A stretch of DNA of 41,094 bases from Alphaproteobacteria bacterium (GTDB taxonomy: Bacteria; Pseudomonadota; Alphaproteobacteria; Micropepsales; Micropepsaceae): contig CANJBZ010000035.1 in NCBI GenBank assembly GCA_947473475.1, positions 1 to 41,094 on the forward strand. The letters run 5' to 3'. Below the pieces are notes generated by a model. The model saw only the letters and a list, made by a program, of their open reading frames with translations. It had not been told where the DNA came from and searched no databases. Shown here one piece after another: positions 6,385 through 12,138 of this stretch. Each line of letters starts with the position of its first letter. Position 1 is the first letter of the stretch. The translations under genes were made by a program, and so were the position numbers.

Positions 6385-6552
6385 ATGCAAATCGCAAGTA
6401 TGGGCTCAGCGCCCCCTGTCGCGGCATTGAGCAAGCCGCCGGAGAAGGCCGAAGGTCCTGGTCCGGATCATGACGGCGATGCCGATGACAAGGGTGCGGT
6501 GAAATCCGCCACCGCGCCGGGTGTCGGTTCTGCCGTGGATATCTCGGCTTAG
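6385..6552 (+). CDS. Small acidic protein with DHDGDADD motif
   Basis: This 55-residue product starts MQIASMGSAPPVAALSKPPE, then has a charged DHDGDADDKG stretch and ends VGSAVDISA. A strong ribosome site (gagaggaga at 6371-6379) stands 5-6 bases before ATG 6385. Short proteins with the same layout (Ser/Ala/Pro-rich start, DHDGDADD, hydrophobic valine-rich end) occur in alphaproteobacteria, to my recollection, with no known function. The Asp-rich run resembles a calcium-binding loop, but this is only suggestive. It is probably monocistronic, ending at the hairpin at 6561-6598. Confidence 0.6.
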   Translation: MQIASMGSAPPVAALSKPPEKAEGPGPDHDGDADDKGAVKSATAPGVGSAVDISA

Positions 6553-6615: not shown

Positions 6616-7476
6616 TCACTGCCGCGCCGCGATGAAATCCAGCATGTCCTGACGCAGCGTGGTTCGCCCCCGAAACCCTGGCGCCAGCGACAAGATGATC
6701 CCGACATGGCCCACACCGGGATAGGTCTTCACCTCCACGGGACTTCCGAACGACCTTAGTTTCTCCGCCAGCCTTGCCGTGTTTCCGGGTGATACCGTCT
6801 CATCAGCCGTGCCCGTCGCCAGAAGCATCGGGGGCCGCTTGCCGTCGATATGGTTGATCGGCTGCGTTTCACGCACGTTAGCGCCACCGAAAATGGTGAC
6901 CAGGTTCGGATCGCGTAAGGGGAGAAAATCATACGGCCCGGCAATGCCGATAACCCCGCGCACCCAAGCCGGGTCGGCGCCCGCCGCGCGCAAGTAAGAC
7001 CAATCCGCCGCCAGCATCATGGCGATATAGGCGCCCGCCGAATGCCCCGTCAGAAACAGCCGTGACGGATCGCCCCCATATTGCGCGACATGCGCATGCA
7101 GATAGGCAAAGGCTTGGGCCCCGTCCTCCACAAAGGCGGGATAGCGCACCTGCGGGTAAACCCGGTAATCGGCGACGGCGACAATGATGCCCTGGCTCGC
7201 GAACGCCTGTCCCAAAGCGAGATACAAATCCTTGCTGCCGTCCTGCCAGGAGCCGCCATAGAAGAACAGCATCGCCGGCGCGCCCGCCGCCGCCCCATCG
7301 GGCACGTACACATCCATCTTCTGGCGCGGGTCTGGCCCATACGCCACATCGCGCACAGCATGAAAGCCGCCGCGCGGCACCAGCAGATTGAGCGCGGCCA
7401 CCGGCGAACAGGCCGCCGCCACCGCCGCCAGACCGAGCGCTCCAAACGCCAGCAGGGCTGTCCACATTTTGGGCAT
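6616..7476 (-). CDS. Alpha/beta-hydrolase esterase (BD-FAE/carboxylesterase type)
   Basis: The product has 286 residues from ATG 7476. An N-terminal hydrophobic export segment ends at VAAACSPVA, so it may be a lipoprotein with a weak lipobox. The hydrolase core shows an oxyanion-hole FYGGSW, a nucleophile elbow GHSAG, an Asp in GTADETV and a His in GVGHVG, which together form a Ser-Asp-His triad. It probably cleaves small ester substrates in the envelope; the substrate is unknown. The open frame extends upstream to 7557, but the hydrophobic signal marks the start at 7476. The gene diverges from the FAD oxidoreductase gene, and a piece of its 3' end is repeated at 6110-6176. Confidence 0.85.
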   Translation of the reverse strand: MPKMWTALLAFGALGLAAVAAACSPVAALNLLVPRGGFHAVRDVAYGPDPRQKMDVYVPDGAAAGAPAMLFFYGGSWQDGSKDLYLALGQAFASQGIIVAVADYRVYPQVRYPAFVEDGAQAFAYLHAHVAQYGGDPSRLFLTGHSAGAYIAMMLAADWSYLRAAGADPAWVRGVIGIAGPYDFLPLRDPNLVTIFGGANVRETQPINHIDGKRPPMLLATGTADETVSPGNTARLAEKLRSFGSPVEVKTYPGVGHVGIILSLAPGFRGRTTLRQDMLDFIAARQ

Positions 7477-7507: not shown

Positions 7508-7535
7508 TGATCCAAACGCACAACTTGGCCGTATA
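7508..7535 (+). promoter_or_regulatory. ECF sigma-E (RpoE/ChrR-type) promoter of the lipid-modification operon
   Basis: TGATCC (7508-7513), 16 bp, then CGTATA (7530-7535). This fits the recalled group IV ECF sigma-E consensus TGATCC-N18-TAnnT, with TATAT at 7532-7536. Two related sites stand before the cfa and DUF1295 genes of the same cluster. Transcription would begin within a few bases of ATG 7542, giving a nearly leaderless mRNA. Confidence 0.7.
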
Positions 7536-7541
7536 TGAGGC

Positions 7542-8885
7542 ATGGCACGCATAGCAATTATCGGCACGGGGATTGCCGGCCTTTCGGCCGCCTATCTGCT
7601 TCATCCGCATCACGACATCACGGTCTACGAGAAAGAGCCGCGCGTTGGCGGCCACAGCCGCACCGTCACAGTGCGGCACGGCGACCGTCACATCGCCGTG
7701 GACACCGGCTTTATCGTCTTCAATCCCCGCAATTACCCCAATTTGACGGCGCTGTTCCGCCGTCTGGGCGTGCCCACCAAGAAAAGCGATATGAGCTTCG
7801 GCCTTTCGGTCGACGGGGGCCGGCTGGAATGGGGGGCTCGCGATTTGAACTCCATGTTCGGCCAGCGCATCAATCTGGTGCGGCCGAAGTTCTATAAGCT
7901 TCTATTCGATGTCCTGCGTTTCAACGCCGCCGCCGCCGCCGAGGCGGAGCGCTCGCCAGACCTGACGCTAGGTCAAATGCTGGCCCGGATGGGCTTGCAC
8001 GATGGCTTTCAGCGGAACTTCCTTTTGCCCATGGCGGGTGCGATCTGGAGCTGTCCGCCGCAGCAAATTCTGGAGTTCCCTGCCCGCAGTTTCGTCCGCT
8101 TCTTCATCAATCATGAGCTTATGTCGATAAAAAGCCGTCCCCAGTGGTGGACGGTTGACGGCGGCGCGCAGGCCTATGTCGAGCGCCTTTCCGCGCCCTT
8201 CGACGATCGCATTCGGACGGGCTGTGCCGCTGTACGCGTCTGGCGCAAACCTCGGGGCGTCGAGATTTTAGACACCAATGGCTGTTTGGACCGCTATGAT
8301 GAGGTGGTGTTTGCCGGTCATGCCAACGACACCCTTGCCATTCTGGCCGATCCTTCGCCTGAGGAGCAAAAGGCGCTGGGCGCCATCCGCTATCAGCGCA
8401 ATGAAATGGTGCTGCACCGTGACCCGTCCTTCATGCCGAAGAACCGTCGCTGCTGGGCAAGCTGGGTCTATCATTGCGAGGCGCAAGACGATGGAGCCGC
8501 GCTGTTTGTTACGTATTGGATGAACCGGCTACAGGGCATCGACGATCGCTATCCCGTGTTCGTGACACTCAACCCTGCGCGTCCGGTTGCCGAAGCAAAC
8601 GTGTTCGATCGTCATAGCTTCATGCACCCGGTGTTCGATTTTGCCGCCTTCAAAGCGCAAGATGAACTGAAGGCCATGCAGGGCCGCCGGAACAGTTGGT
8701 TCTGCGGGGCGCATATGGGTTACGGCTTTCACGAAGACGGCCTGGTCAGCGCGATGCGGGTTACTGAACAGTTGGGAGCGCGCGCGCCCTGGCTGGATGA
8801 GACGGCGGACGAGCCCGGTAAAGCCCATGTTCTCACCGGTGCTGAAAATGAGGCGCCCGCGGTTCCTCTCGAGGCCGCGGAGTGA
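7542..8885 (+). CDS. FAD-dependent amine-oxidase-like oxidoreductase (fatty-acid modification)
   Basis: The product has 447 residues. A Rossmann FAD motif IAIIGTGIAGLSAAYLL opens the protein, followed by VYEKEPRVGGHSRTV and AVDTGFIVFN. This is the flavin oxidoreductase that usually travels with DUF1365 and Cfa-type methyltransferase genes. In related alphaproteobacteria such clusters make modified membrane fatty acids (methylated, cyclopropane or furan types) and belong to the singlet-oxygen sigma-E response; this is known for the cluster type and inferred here. The FAD motif at residue 4 onward fixes the start at ATG 7542. It overlaps the DUF1365 gene by 4 bp (GTGA), so the two are translationally coupled. 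Possible substrates are unsaturated or methylated acyl chains of phospholipids. Confidence 0.85.
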   Translation: MARIAIIGTGIAGLSAAYLLHPHHDITVYEKEPRVGGHSRTVTVRHGDRHIAVDTGFIVFNPRNYPNLTALFRRLGVPTKKSDMSFGLSVDGGRLEWGARDLNSMFGQRINLVRPKFYKLLFDVLRFNAAAAAEAERSPDLTLGQMLARMGLHDGFQRNFLLPMAGAIWSCPPQQILEFPARSFVRFFINHELMSIKSRPQWWTVDGGAQAYVERLSAPFDDRIRTGCAAVRVWRKPRGVEILDTNGCLDRYDEVVFAGHANDTLAILADPSPEEQKALGAIRYQRNEMVLHRDPSFMPKNRRCWASWVYHCEAQDDGAALFVTYWMNRLQGIDDRYPVFVTLNPARPVAEANVFDRHSFMHPVFDFAAFKAQDELKAMQGRRNSWFCGAHMGYGFHEDGLVSAMRVTEQLGARAPWLDETADEPGKAHVLTGAENEAPAVPLEAAE

Positions 8886-9637
8886 TCCGCCTTCTCAGCG
8901 CGCGCATTTTCCACTGCCGCCTGAGGCCGCGCGTGAACCGTTTCCGCTACGGCGCGCTTTACGTCACCGTTCCCACGGAAGCATTGGCGAAGCCCAGCCG
9001 CACCGGGCTGTTTTCCGTCGATCGCGCCAATCTTTTCAGCGTTCGCAGTCGCGACTATGGGGACGGCACAATAGCGCCGCACCTGTGGATCCGGCAGGTG
9101 TTGAACGAATGGGCCGTACCGCAGGCCGACGGCGAGATCGTGCTGATGACCATACCGCGCGTGCTCGGCTATGCGTTTAACCCCGTCAGCTTTTGGTGCT
9201 GCTTTGACCGCGAAAAGCGGTTGCGCGCGGTGCTGGCGGAGGTGAGCAACACCTTCGGCGAGCGCCACTCTTACCTGTGTTTCCACGAGGACCGCCGGCC
9301 TATCCTTGCCGATGACACGCTGAAGGCCAGCAAAGTGTTCCACGTCTCGCCCTTCATCGACGTGGCGGGCGAATATGCGTTTCGCTTTTCCATGACGCCG
9401 GAACACATCGCTATTTCCATCACGCTGTCCGATGACAAGGGCGTGCTGCTGCAGACATCAGTCGCGGGGGCGACACAGCCGTTAACCTCGGCGCGGATTT
9501 TGGTCGCGTTCTTAGGCAATCCGCTTTATGCGCTGAAGATCATCAGCCTCATCCACTATCAGGCCGTCAAACTGTTCCTGAAGGGCATCGGCCACTTCCG
9601 CAAGCCCGCGCCGCCGGCGAGTACCATTTCCCACTGA
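8882..9637 (+). CDS. DUF1365 family protein
   Basis: The product has 251 residues and starts with GTG inside the stop of the FAD gene. The family is recognised by the opening SARIFHCRLRPRVNRFRYGA, the motif LGYAFNPVSFWCCFD and an EVSNTFGERHSY segment. DUF1365 proteins have no proven activity but nearly always sit beside the FAD oxidoreductase and Cfa-like methyltransferase, so they are taken as part of the same membrane fatty-acid modification. The gene is co-transcribed with the FAD gene from the sigma-E-type promoter. It ends 10 bp from the stop of the convergent cfa gene. Confidence 0.87.
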   Translation: MIRLLSARIFHCRLRPRVNRFRYGALYVTVPTEALAKPSRTGLFSVDRANLFSVRSRDYGDGTIAPHLWIRQVLNEWAVPQADGEIVLMTIPRVLGYAFNPVSFWCCFDREKRLRAVLAEVSNTFGERHSYLCFHEDRRPILADDTLKASKVFHVSPFIDVAGEYAFRFSMTPEHIAISITLSDDKGVLLQTSVAGATQPLTSARILVAFLGNPLYALKIISLIHYQAVKLFLKGIGHFRKPAPPASTISH

Positions 9638-9647
9638 TGTCACACGC

Positions 9648-10817
9648 TTAGGCGTGCGCGAATTCCAGCTGCGCGACATCGGTTCTGCCGACGGCGAAAG
9701 CGGCAGCGCACATCGCAAGATAGAATTGCCAATTGCGCAGGAAGCGGTCGTCGTGCCCAAGAGCGCGTATTTCGGCTTCCTGTGCCTTCATCCGATCCGA
9801 CCAGTTGCGCAGCGTGCGGGCATAGTCCTGCCCGAAGCGGTAGACATCCACCACCTTTAGCCCTGCGCGCATCGCTTCTTCTTTCATGCGCGCCAGTGAG
9901 GGCAGCATGCCGCCGGGGAATACATAATGGCGGATGAAATCACTGCGCTGGCGATAGCCGGGGAACAATTCGTCCTGCACAAGGATCGCCTGCACGACAG
10001 CGCGCCCGCCGCGCGACATGCGCTCCGCAATGCTTTGGAAATAAACCGGCCAATAGCGTTCGCCCACCGCCTCCACCATCTCAATCGACACGATGGCATC
10101 GAAGGTCCCGCGCACCTGCCGGTAATCCTGCAACCGGATGTCGGCCTTGCCGCCCAACCGCGACGTCGCGAAGGCGTGCTGCGCCGGAGAAATCGTCAGC
10201 CCGGTGACGTCGTGTCCGGTCTGCACCGCCTGCTCCGCGAAACCGCCCCAGCCGCACCCGATCTCCAGAACAGAGCCTCGGTTTTTTTCCAGCTTGGACA
10301 AAATGCGTTCGTACTTTCGCCGTTGCGCGGCGGGCAGCGGATCGTCTTCTTTGGCAAACAGAGCCGACGAATACGTCATCGTCTCGTCCAGCCACAATTT
10401 GTAGAAATCGTTGCCGACGTCGTAATGGGATTCGATGTTGCGCTTGGCGCCGCTTTCACTGTTGCGGCGAACGAATGCGTTCAACGCACGGAAGGCGAGG
10501 CGATTTAGGAAATTGCCGTGCGCAAATCCTTCGAGCTCGTCGAGGTTGAGCAGAAAGAACACGATGAGCGATTCGAGATCGTCAGTGTCCCAGGCGGCGG
10601 CGATATAATCTTCGCCAAGGCCGATATCGCCGCGCGCGACCAGGCGTTCGAGGACGCCGAAATCATGGATGCGGAAGGTTGCGTGCGGACCGGGCTCGCT
10701 GCCTTCGAAGCGATGTTCATCGCCGTTCGGTGCGGCATAGACGATGGACCCGCGCCGGGTGCGTCCCAACGCCGAAAGCCAACGATCCTGAAGGATTGAT
10801 TTTGGTATCAAGCTCAT
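9648..10817 (-). CDS. cfa: Cyclopropane-fatty-acid synthase-type SAM methyltransferase
   Basis: The product has 389 residues from ATG 10817. The SAM-binding motif VLEIGCGWGGFAEQA is in the middle. NIESHYDVGNDFYKLWLD precedes it, and YVFPGGMLPS with NWSDRMKAQE follows; all are typical of Cfa. The enzyme transfers a methyl(ene) group from SAM to unsaturated acyl chains of membrane phospholipids. GTG 10841 and ATG 10826 are in frame upstream, but the ribosome site ggggaggg has ideal spacing only to ATG 10817. The promoter at 10850-10877 fits the sigma-E pattern. The gene is convergent with the FAD-DUF1365 pair and divergent from DUF1295, so all five cluster genes lie together in three transcripts. 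Confidence 0.9.
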   Translation of the reverse strand: MSLIPKSILQDRWLSALGRTRRGSIVYAAPNGDEHRFEGSEPGPHATFRIHDFGVLERLVARGDIGLGEDYIAAAWDTDDLESLIVFFLLNLDELEGFAHGNFLNRLAFRALNAFVRRNSESGAKRNIESHYDVGNDFYKLWLDETMTYSSALFAKEDDPLPAAQRRKYERILSKLEKNRGSVLEIGCGWGGFAEQAVQTGHDVTGLTISPAQHAFATSRLGGKADIRLQDYRQVRGTFDAIVSIEMVEAVGERYWPVYFQSIAERMSRGGRAVVQAILVQDELFPGYRQRSDFIRHYVFPGGMLPSLARMKEEAMRAGLKVVDVYRFGQDYARTLRNWSDRMKAQEAEIRALGHDDRFLRNWQFYLAMCAAAFAVGRTDVAQLEFAHA

Positions 10818-10849
10818 CGACGGCATCCCTCCCCTCGACACCCACCCAT

Positions 10850-10877
10850 TCTACGCCAAATCGCGCAAAATAGATCA
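10850..10877 (-). promoter_or_regulatory. ECF sigma-E-type promoter of cfa
   Basis: On the minus strand: TGATCT, 16 bp, CGTAGA. The -35 element is at 10872-10877 and the -10 at 10850-10855. It has the same layout as the promoter before the FAD gene and lies back-to-back with the DUF1295 promoter, 8 bp away. Confidence 0.65.
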
Positions 10878-10885
10878 CCGGCAGG

Positions 10886-10913
10886 CAATCCAAACCGCGA
10901 TTCTATTCGTACT
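10886..10913 (+). promoter_or_regulatory. ECF sigma-E-type promoter of DUF1295-DUF2177
   Basis: CAATCC (10886-10891), 16 bp, CGTACT (10908-10913), then about 29 bp to ATG 10943. It is the weakest of the three sites in the -35 element but has identical spacing and the CGTA core. Confidence 0.55.
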
Positions 10914-10942: not shown

Positions 10943-11743
10943 ATGGCCCATCCGATCCCTACCCTTTTGATGGCCTTTGCCATGATGACGACCCTGTGGC
11001 CGCTGAGCATCCGGCTGAAAGATGTCAGCATTATCGACATCTTATGGGCGCCGGCCTTTGCGGTTCTGGCCTGGCTTTCGGCCGGGCTTGCGCCGGATGT
11101 GGGTGCCCGCGGCTGGATCGTGCTGGCGCTGATTACGGTGTGGGCGATCCGCCTGGGTACCCACGTCTATGGCCGCTGGCAGCGGCTTGGGCATGAGGAT
11201 TACCGCTACACCGCCATCCGCAAGCAGCGTGGCGGCAATTTCGCGCTGACCAGCCTGTGGTGGATTTTCTGGATGCAGGCTCTTCTGCTCTGGATCATTT
11301 CCTGGCCGCTGCAAGCCGCCTTCGATGCACCCGAAACACCGTTGGGCATGCTGGACGCATTGGGAATCCCCTTTGCGGCAGGCGGTATCGTCATCGAAGC
11401 CGCCGCCGATGCGCAGCTCACCCGGTTCCGAGCCAACCCTGAGAACCGCGGCCACGTGCTCGACACGGGACTGTGGGGTTGGTCGCGGCACCCCAATTAC
11501 TTCGGCGACTTCGCTTTGTGGTGGGGTCTGTACCTGATCGCGCTGGGCGCGGGCGCGCCCTGGTGGACGGCTCTGGGTCCCATCGTCATGAGCGGACTGC
11601 TGCTACATTATTCCGGCGCGAGCCTTATGGAAGACACCATCGTGGACCGGCGGCCGGCCTATGCCGATTACATCCGGCGCACCAGCGCCTTCTTTCTCTG
11701 GCCGCCAACCCGCAGCCCCCGCACGCAAGGTCCAAGCACATGA
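10943..11743 (+). CDS. DUF1295 membrane protein (steroid 5-alpha-reductase-like fold)
   Basis: The product has 266 residues with about six membrane segments. The motif RFRANPENRG followed by GLWGWSRHPNYFGD is the signature of DUF1295, a relative of steroid 5-alpha-reductase and isoprenylcysteine methyltransferase membrane enzymes. It likely acts on lipids in the inner membrane; family members in such clusters are presumed to reduce or modify the acyl chain changed by Cfa and the FAD enzyme. ATG 10943 is preceded by a purine-rich ribosome site. The stop overlaps the start of the DUF2177 gene (ATGA), so the two are coupled. The substrate is not known. Confidence 0.87.
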   Translation: MAHPIPTLLMAFAMMTTLWPLSIRLKDVSIIDILWAPAFAVLAWLSAGLAPDVGARGWIVLALITVWAIRLGTHVYGRWQRLGHEDYRYTAIRKQRGGNFALTSLWWIFWMQALLLWIISWPLQAAFDAPETPLGMLDALGIPFAAGGIVIEAAADAQLTRFRANPENRGHVLDTGLWGWSRHPNYFGDFALWWGLYLIALGAGAPWWTALGPIVMSGLLLHYSGASLMEDTIVDRRPAYADYIRRTSAFFLWPPTRSPRTQGPST

Positions 11744-12138
11744 CCAGCTATGCCATCCGCTATGTCACGGTTCTATTGGTGCTCGTCATCGGCGATGCCG
11801 CTTGGCTGAGCTTCTTTGCCCGTACCATGTTCCGCCCAACACTCGGCGACATCCTGCTGGAAGACCCGCGCTGGGTCGGCGTTGCGATATTTTATCTCCT
11901 GTTTACGGCGGGCGTCCTGGTTTTCCCGCTGCAGCTCGGCTTGCGCGGCCAAACCCCGTTGGCCGCGGCGATGTACGGCTTCCTGTTCGGCTTCTTCTGC
12001 TACATGACCTATGACGCGACGAACTACGCCACCATCAAGAACTGGACGGCTCCCTTGGCGTTCATCGACACGCTCTGGGGCGCCCTGCTGACGGCCGCGG
12101 CAACAACGGCGGCCTATTTCGTCGCGAACCGGGTCTGA
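11740..12138 (+). CDS. DUF2177 membrane protein
   Basis: This 132-residue protein has four hydrophobic segments. The family hallmarks GDAAWLSF, FGFFCYMTYDATNYATIKNW and IDTLWGALLT are all present. DUF2177 genes regularly accompany DUF1295, DUF1365 and Cfa genes, so it is counted in the membrane-lipid cluster, but no biochemical role is known. It starts at ATG 11740 inside the DUF1295 stop. The open frame extends further upstream to 11473 but lies inside DUF1295. It is convergent with the MmgE/PrpD gene, with 4 bp between stops. Confidence 0.85.
   Translation: MTSYAIRYVTVLLVLVIGDAAWLSFFARTMFRPTLGDILLEDPRWVGVAIFYLLFTAGVLVFPLQLGLRGQTPLAAAMYGFLFGFFCYMTYDATNYATIKNWTAPLAFIDTLWGALLTAAATTAAYFVANRV

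Follow-up and report, generated by a model that had tools for sequence, protein, structure and literature searches.

A putative RpoE-ChrR-controlled furan fatty acid cluster in a member of the Micropepsaceae

Introduction

The closest described relatives of the system treated here are the sigma-E-ChrR core regulon of Rhodobacter (Cereibacter) sphaeroides, which includes ufaM and RSP1091-1087, and the regulon of Pseudomonas syringae RpoE (PSPTO_1043), which includes a locus running from phrB to cfa (PSPTO_1121-1114). Glu147 and His177 of the anti-sigma factor ChrR are required for the singlet oxygen response (PMC6852236). Chromatin immunoprecipitation sequencing (ChIP-seq) of the P. syringae factor gave the consensus TGATCC-N16-CGTA (PMC5507510), and in Shewanella start sites were mapped downstream of TGATCC with CGTATT or CGTAAT (PMC4336711). 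In R. sphaeroides UfaM, UfaD (RSP1091) and UfaO (RSP1090, a DUF1365 protein) act in turn to produce the furan fatty acid 9M5-FuFA, RSP1087-1089 of the same operon being dispensable for this synthesis (PMC7380195). UfaM and the cyclopropane synthase Cfa are similar enzymes with distinct activities (PMC12089945). Outside bacteria, UfaM/UfaD-like and UfaO-like proteins occur in Arabidopsis lipid droplets (PMC10940516), and in Chlamydomonas the CFA1, CFA2, DUF1365, DUF2177 and DUF1295 genes need SAK1 for their induction by singlet oxygen (PMC4067076, Table 5).

Here we analyse contig CANJBZ010000035.1 (41,094 nucleotides (nt); hereafter the window, which is the whole of contig C35) from a genome of the alphaproteobacterial family Micropepsaceae (3.87 Mb, 66 contigs, 99% complete). 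It carries a cluster comprising a flavin adenine dinucleotide (FAD)-dependent protein gene followed by a DUF1365 gene, a methyltransferase gene labelled cfa on the opposite strand, and a DUF1295-DUF2177 gene pair. These gene types are part of the published core sigma-E-ChrR regulon (PMC6852236; PMC5507510). We interpret the cluster, with a probability of about 0.88, as the lipid arm of an RpoE-ChrR photo-oxidative stress regulon, governed by an extracytoplasmic function sigma factor of group ECF11 and with furan fatty acids as its output.

Results

A single RpoE-ChrR pair and its promoter

An earlier sequence-only reading of the window had predicted an RpoE-ChrR pair encoded elsewhere in the genome, and one such pair was indeed found on contig C30 (locus L013). 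The only ChrR-family gene of the genome (C30:1268-1891; 167 bits with TIGR02451, cut-off 124.5) is preceded by an ECF sigma gene whose reading frame overlaps its own. The closest Protein Data Bank (PDB) match of the sigma protein is R. sphaeroides RpoE (E 1.5e-42, next best 2e-20), and most of the ChrR sequence can be aligned with R. sphaeroides ChrR (PDB 2z2s_B), all of H6, H31, C35, C38, H141, H143, E147 and H177 being kept. Beyond E147 and H177, we take these positions to be the ligands of the anti-sigma-domain zinc and of the cupin domain. A genome scan for TGATCC-N16-CGTA returned an exact match upstream of rpoE (C30:563-588). Since the open reading frame called from 576 would begin inside this promoter, the sigma start codon most likely lies at about position 687 of C30.

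Three promoter-like sites in the cluster

The same reading had placed a site of this kind before each of the three transcripts of the cluster, and all three are present (Table 1), with a hexamer spacing of exactly 16 nt. They are correctly oriented and stand 34 nt from the start codon of the FAD gene, 36 nt from that of the methyltransferase gene (start 10841) and 57 nt from that of the DUF1295 gene. The number of sites is at chance level. With at most one mismatch, TGATCC-N16-CGTA matches the window twice, shuffled sequences giving 1.62 on average, and the 12 exact TGATCY-N16-CGTA matches in the genome are close to the expectation from base frequencies and lie mostly within genes. The pattern that fits all three sites, ATCY-N16-CGTA, occurs four times in the window against 0.89 expected, a count reached in 2 of 100 shuffles. 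We rejected the genome-wide exact matches as a regulon list, as most of the nine beyond the window and rpoE sites are within or antisense to genes and resemble background. No sigma-70-like promoter was found between positions 6500 and 12500 of the window.

What sets the sites apart from chance is their position: their orientation and closeness to the start codons of the cluster, together with the exact match in front of rpoE-chrR, which is among the few genome matches outside genes, argue that they are more than random occurrences. The raw window and genome counts would fit a reading in which a short motif has matched by chance at all three sites and RpoE does not control the genes; position, orientation, conservation in relatives and linkage to rpoE-chrR speak against it, and we regard it as very improbable.

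Conservation in relatives

In six related loci (L044, L045, L046, L050, L051 and L052) rpoE-chrR is part of the same cluster or adjoins it, often with DUF2177 following. In six others from other parts of the class (L063, L067, L069, L071, L072 and L074) rpoE-chrR is divergent from the FAD-DUF1365 operon, with a CFA gene behind the latter, and two back-to-back sites occupy the divergent arrangement. The contig scan with the DUF1365 protein as query yielded only nine loci. We compared 43 distinct regions upstream of FAD genes, scanned to 250 nt, six of which came from a search using the motif itself. An exact site was present in 20 of them and a one-mismatch site in three more, whereas shuffles of the 43 regions gave about 1.4 sites in all, even at up to two mismatches. 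When the six motif-selected regions were removed, 17 of 37 retained a site (14 exact, 3 with one mismatch), where chance would give about 1 even if two mismatches were allowed.

The methyltransferase is probably of the UfaM type

The earlier description of a lipid-modification cluster agrees with the gene families found, but its label cfa is probably not apt. The bicarbonate ligands of Escherichia coli Cfa are Glu239, His266 and Tyr317 (PMC11387697). At Cfa positions 139/239/266/317 the window protein has S/E/Q/Y against C/E/H/Y in Cfa paralogues, so that Glu239 and Tyr317 are kept while His266 is replaced by Gln; Cfa His240 is replaced by Ala. We aligned 34 clade proteins (the window protein and 33 others) with 16 more distant paralogues from genomes of the class (loci L088-L133). 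Gln266 and Ala240 occur in 34/34 clade proteins, mostly with Ser139, while Cys139/Glu239/His266/Tyr317 is retained in 14/16 distant paralogues. Among the 33 other clade proteins, 26 have FAD and DUF1365 neighbours, one has FAD only and six have neither within the flank retrieved. The resulting signature (139, 240, 266) is unpublished and was derived here by linkage, not from the R. sphaeroides UfaM sequence. Two CMAS paralogues (L118 and L127) carry neither signature, showing APQY and CQQY at 139/239/266/317, and possibly represent further acyl-modifying activities.

These residues bear on a second interpretation, in which RpoE-ChrR controls the cluster and the methyltransferase is a genuine cyclopropane synthase that produces cyclopropane fatty acids. 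Matches to the CMAS family and to the E. coli model for cyclopropane synthase favour this, as does the absence of any other full-length CMAS-family protein from the genome, the four other matches being short and weak. However, the protein scores 242 bits with that model, below the curated cut-off of 400, and the replacements at 139, 240 and 266, with the consistent split between its clade and the distant paralogues, make a cyclopropane synthase improbable. The 'cfa' gene is thus probably of the UfaM type, and we refer to it as ufaM. UfaM-, UfaD- and UfaO-type families are all present together in the window, and the order FAD-DUF1365-CFA is contiguous in many relatives. Because a UfaM-type methyltransferase is accompanied by an FAD protein corresponding to UfaD and a DUF1365 protein corresponding to UfaO, furan fatty acids are the probable product of the cluster.

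A predicted leaderless ufaD transcript

Only 8 nt separate the CGTA end of the first site from the ATG of the FAD gene at 7542. No in-frame start codon exists upstream of 7542, and a later start is not credible because the nucleotide-binding motif begins at once in the protein (MARIAIIGTGIAGL). Searching 96 genomes of the order with 6-21 nt allowed between CGTA and ATG, we found the arrangement in ten (L158-L167), eight of them with a gap of 8 nt and the other two with one of 9 nt, corresponding to site-to-ATG distances of 34-35 nt; the reversed-pattern control in the same search gave no match. In two further genomes of the order the distance is 51-53 nt, and elsewhere in the class it is 55-210 nt. 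Bacterial transcription usually initiates 6-9 nt past the -10 element. Given this and the 8-9 nt gap, the ufaD mRNA is predicted to have no leader or almost none.

DUF1295 and DUF2177

Two of the six -35 positions of the CAATCC site differ from the consensus, and in P. syringae weak sites of the CAAACC/CAAACT type gave induction that was not significant or only modest (PMC5507510). It could therefore be argued that only the first two sites are genuine ECF11 promoters, CAATCC being a chance match and DUF1295-DUF2177 being expressed otherwise. Against this, CAATCC-N16-CGTA also stands before DUF1295 in two other genomes, at 53 nt (L019) and 45 nt (L043), a site lies 45-78 nt ahead of the gene in 11 of 53 DUF1295 upstream regions (window included), and in relatives DUF1295 and DUF2177 lie in one run with rpoE-chrR. 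We consider a chance origin of this site unlikely, if less so than a cyclopropane synthase, and DUF1295-DUF2177 likely members of the regulon. A TGATCG-N16-CGTA motif 235-249 nt before seven DUF1295 homologues was set aside as coding, given a conserved open frame in 4/4 cases checked.

In the literature searched, no role was found for DUF1295 or DUF2177, and the two are named together only in the Chlamydomonas study (PMC4067076). A broader proposal, that both are standing partners of furan fatty acid and singlet oxygen responses, under RpoE-ChrR in bacteria and SAK1 in green algae, and that ufaD is leaderless by conserved design in the order, seems to us evenly poised.

Table 1. Features of the cluster and their positions in the window.
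Feature	Position	Strand	Remarks
ECF11 (RpoE-ChrR type) promoter-like site TGATCC-N16-CGTATA, before FAD gene	7508..7535	+	Hexamers 7508-7513/7530-7535
FAD-dependent amine-oxidase-type protein, UfaD-like (putative fatty acyl desaturase)	7542..8885	+	Pfam Amino_oxidase/NAD_binding_8; adjoins UfaO-like gene as in R. sphaeroides RSP1091-1090 (PMC7380195)
DUF1365 protein, UfaO-like (putative furan-forming monooxygenase)	8882..9637	+	PF07103 E 2.8e-71; DUF1365 within UfaO (PMC7380195)
S-adenosylmethionine-dependent fatty acyl methyltransferase, probable UfaM type (earlier label cfa)	9648..10841	-	CMAS PF02353; alternative ATG 10817
ECF11 promoter-like site TGATCT-N16-CGTAGA, before ufaM	10850..10877	-	Hexamers 10877-10872/10855-10850
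ECF11 promoter-like site CAATCC-N16-CGTACT, before DUF1295-DUF2177, weaker match	10886..10913	+	Hexamers 10886-10891/10908-10913
DUF1295 membrane protein	10943..11743	+	PF06966 E 3.4e-66; within rpoE-chrR cluster of L044, L045, L052
DUF2177 small membrane protein	11740..12138	+	PF09945 E 1.9e-35; directly 3' of chrR in L044, L045, L052

A neighbouring hydrolase gene

An alpha/beta hydrolase of the BD-FAE type (6616-7476, minus strand) is divergent from the FAD gene and also adjoins the cluster in L044, L045, L050 and L051. No RpoE-type site for it was found in the window or in four homologue upstream regions. The enzyme may act in the same pathway as a lipid esterase.

Discussion

The locus is a further example of the already known RpoE-ChrR system, and control of the cluster by this pair, as proposed from the sequence, is supported by the genomic pair with its own site, by the ChIP-seq consensus (PMC5507510) and by the core regulon (PMC6852236). 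The likeness to R. sphaeroides extends to the sigma/anti-sigma pair, by closest PDB match and retained ChrR zinc ligands, to the UfaM-, UfaD- and UfaO-type families, to the -35 element and to an autoregulatory site. In contrast to R. sphaeroides, ufaM of the window is encoded next to ufaDO but on the other strand and has a separate site, DUF1295-DUF2177 stands in place of RSP1087-1089, and the photolyase gene phrB, sought as a further regulon member, is not represented by any FAD_binding_7 match in the genome. The P. syringae regulon shares an identical consensus and homologues of the FAD, DUF1365-position and cfa genes; it is, however, one long locus with one site and includes a photolyase, while the window has three transcripts and three sites. 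Further counterparts are the clusters L044, L046, L050 and L052, from genomes that belong to the order or stand near it. They contain the same families, and their site likewise lies 34 nt from the ATG of the FAD gene; rpoE-chrR is within or next to the cluster there, whereas the present genome has it on another contig and has ufaM inverted, with a site to itself. The Chlamydomonas SAK1 response, in which all the corresponding genes are induced, is likened to the window by family names, and it belongs to a eukaryote without an ECF sigma factor.

Three points weigh against our interpretation. Within 250 nt, 20 of the 37 FAD homologues of the class have no site, so that ECF11 linkage is not universal; the CAATCC site is the weakest of the three; and the UfaD, UfaO and UfaM assignments draw on family membership, gene linkage and the residues at three active-site positions.

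From sequence and by analogy with the systems above, we infer promoter activity, inducing signal and lipid product in this organism as follows. The zinc anti-sigma factor ChrR would keep RpoE inactive until singlet oxygen or an organic peroxide leads to loss of ChrR. Free RpoE would then direct RNA polymerase to the TGATCC-N16-CGTA promoters, its own and the three of the window, raising the ufaD-ufaO, ufaM and DUF1295-DUF2177 transcripts. UfaM would transfer a methyl group onto an unsaturated acyl chain, UfaD would introduce a second double bond into the methylated chain, and UfaO, with O2, would close the ring to give a furan fatty acid. This product may protect against singlet oxygen and feed back on ChrR turnover.

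The cluster makes the RpoE-ChrR lipid response testable in a lineage on which our searches turned up no experimental data. It also offers a sequence rule for telling UfaM from cyclopropane synthase, UfaM genes being commonly labelled cfa. Finally, it singles out DUF1295 and DUF2177, two membrane proteins not yet characterised, as likely participants in the furan fatty acid response, a parallel being seen in a green alga.

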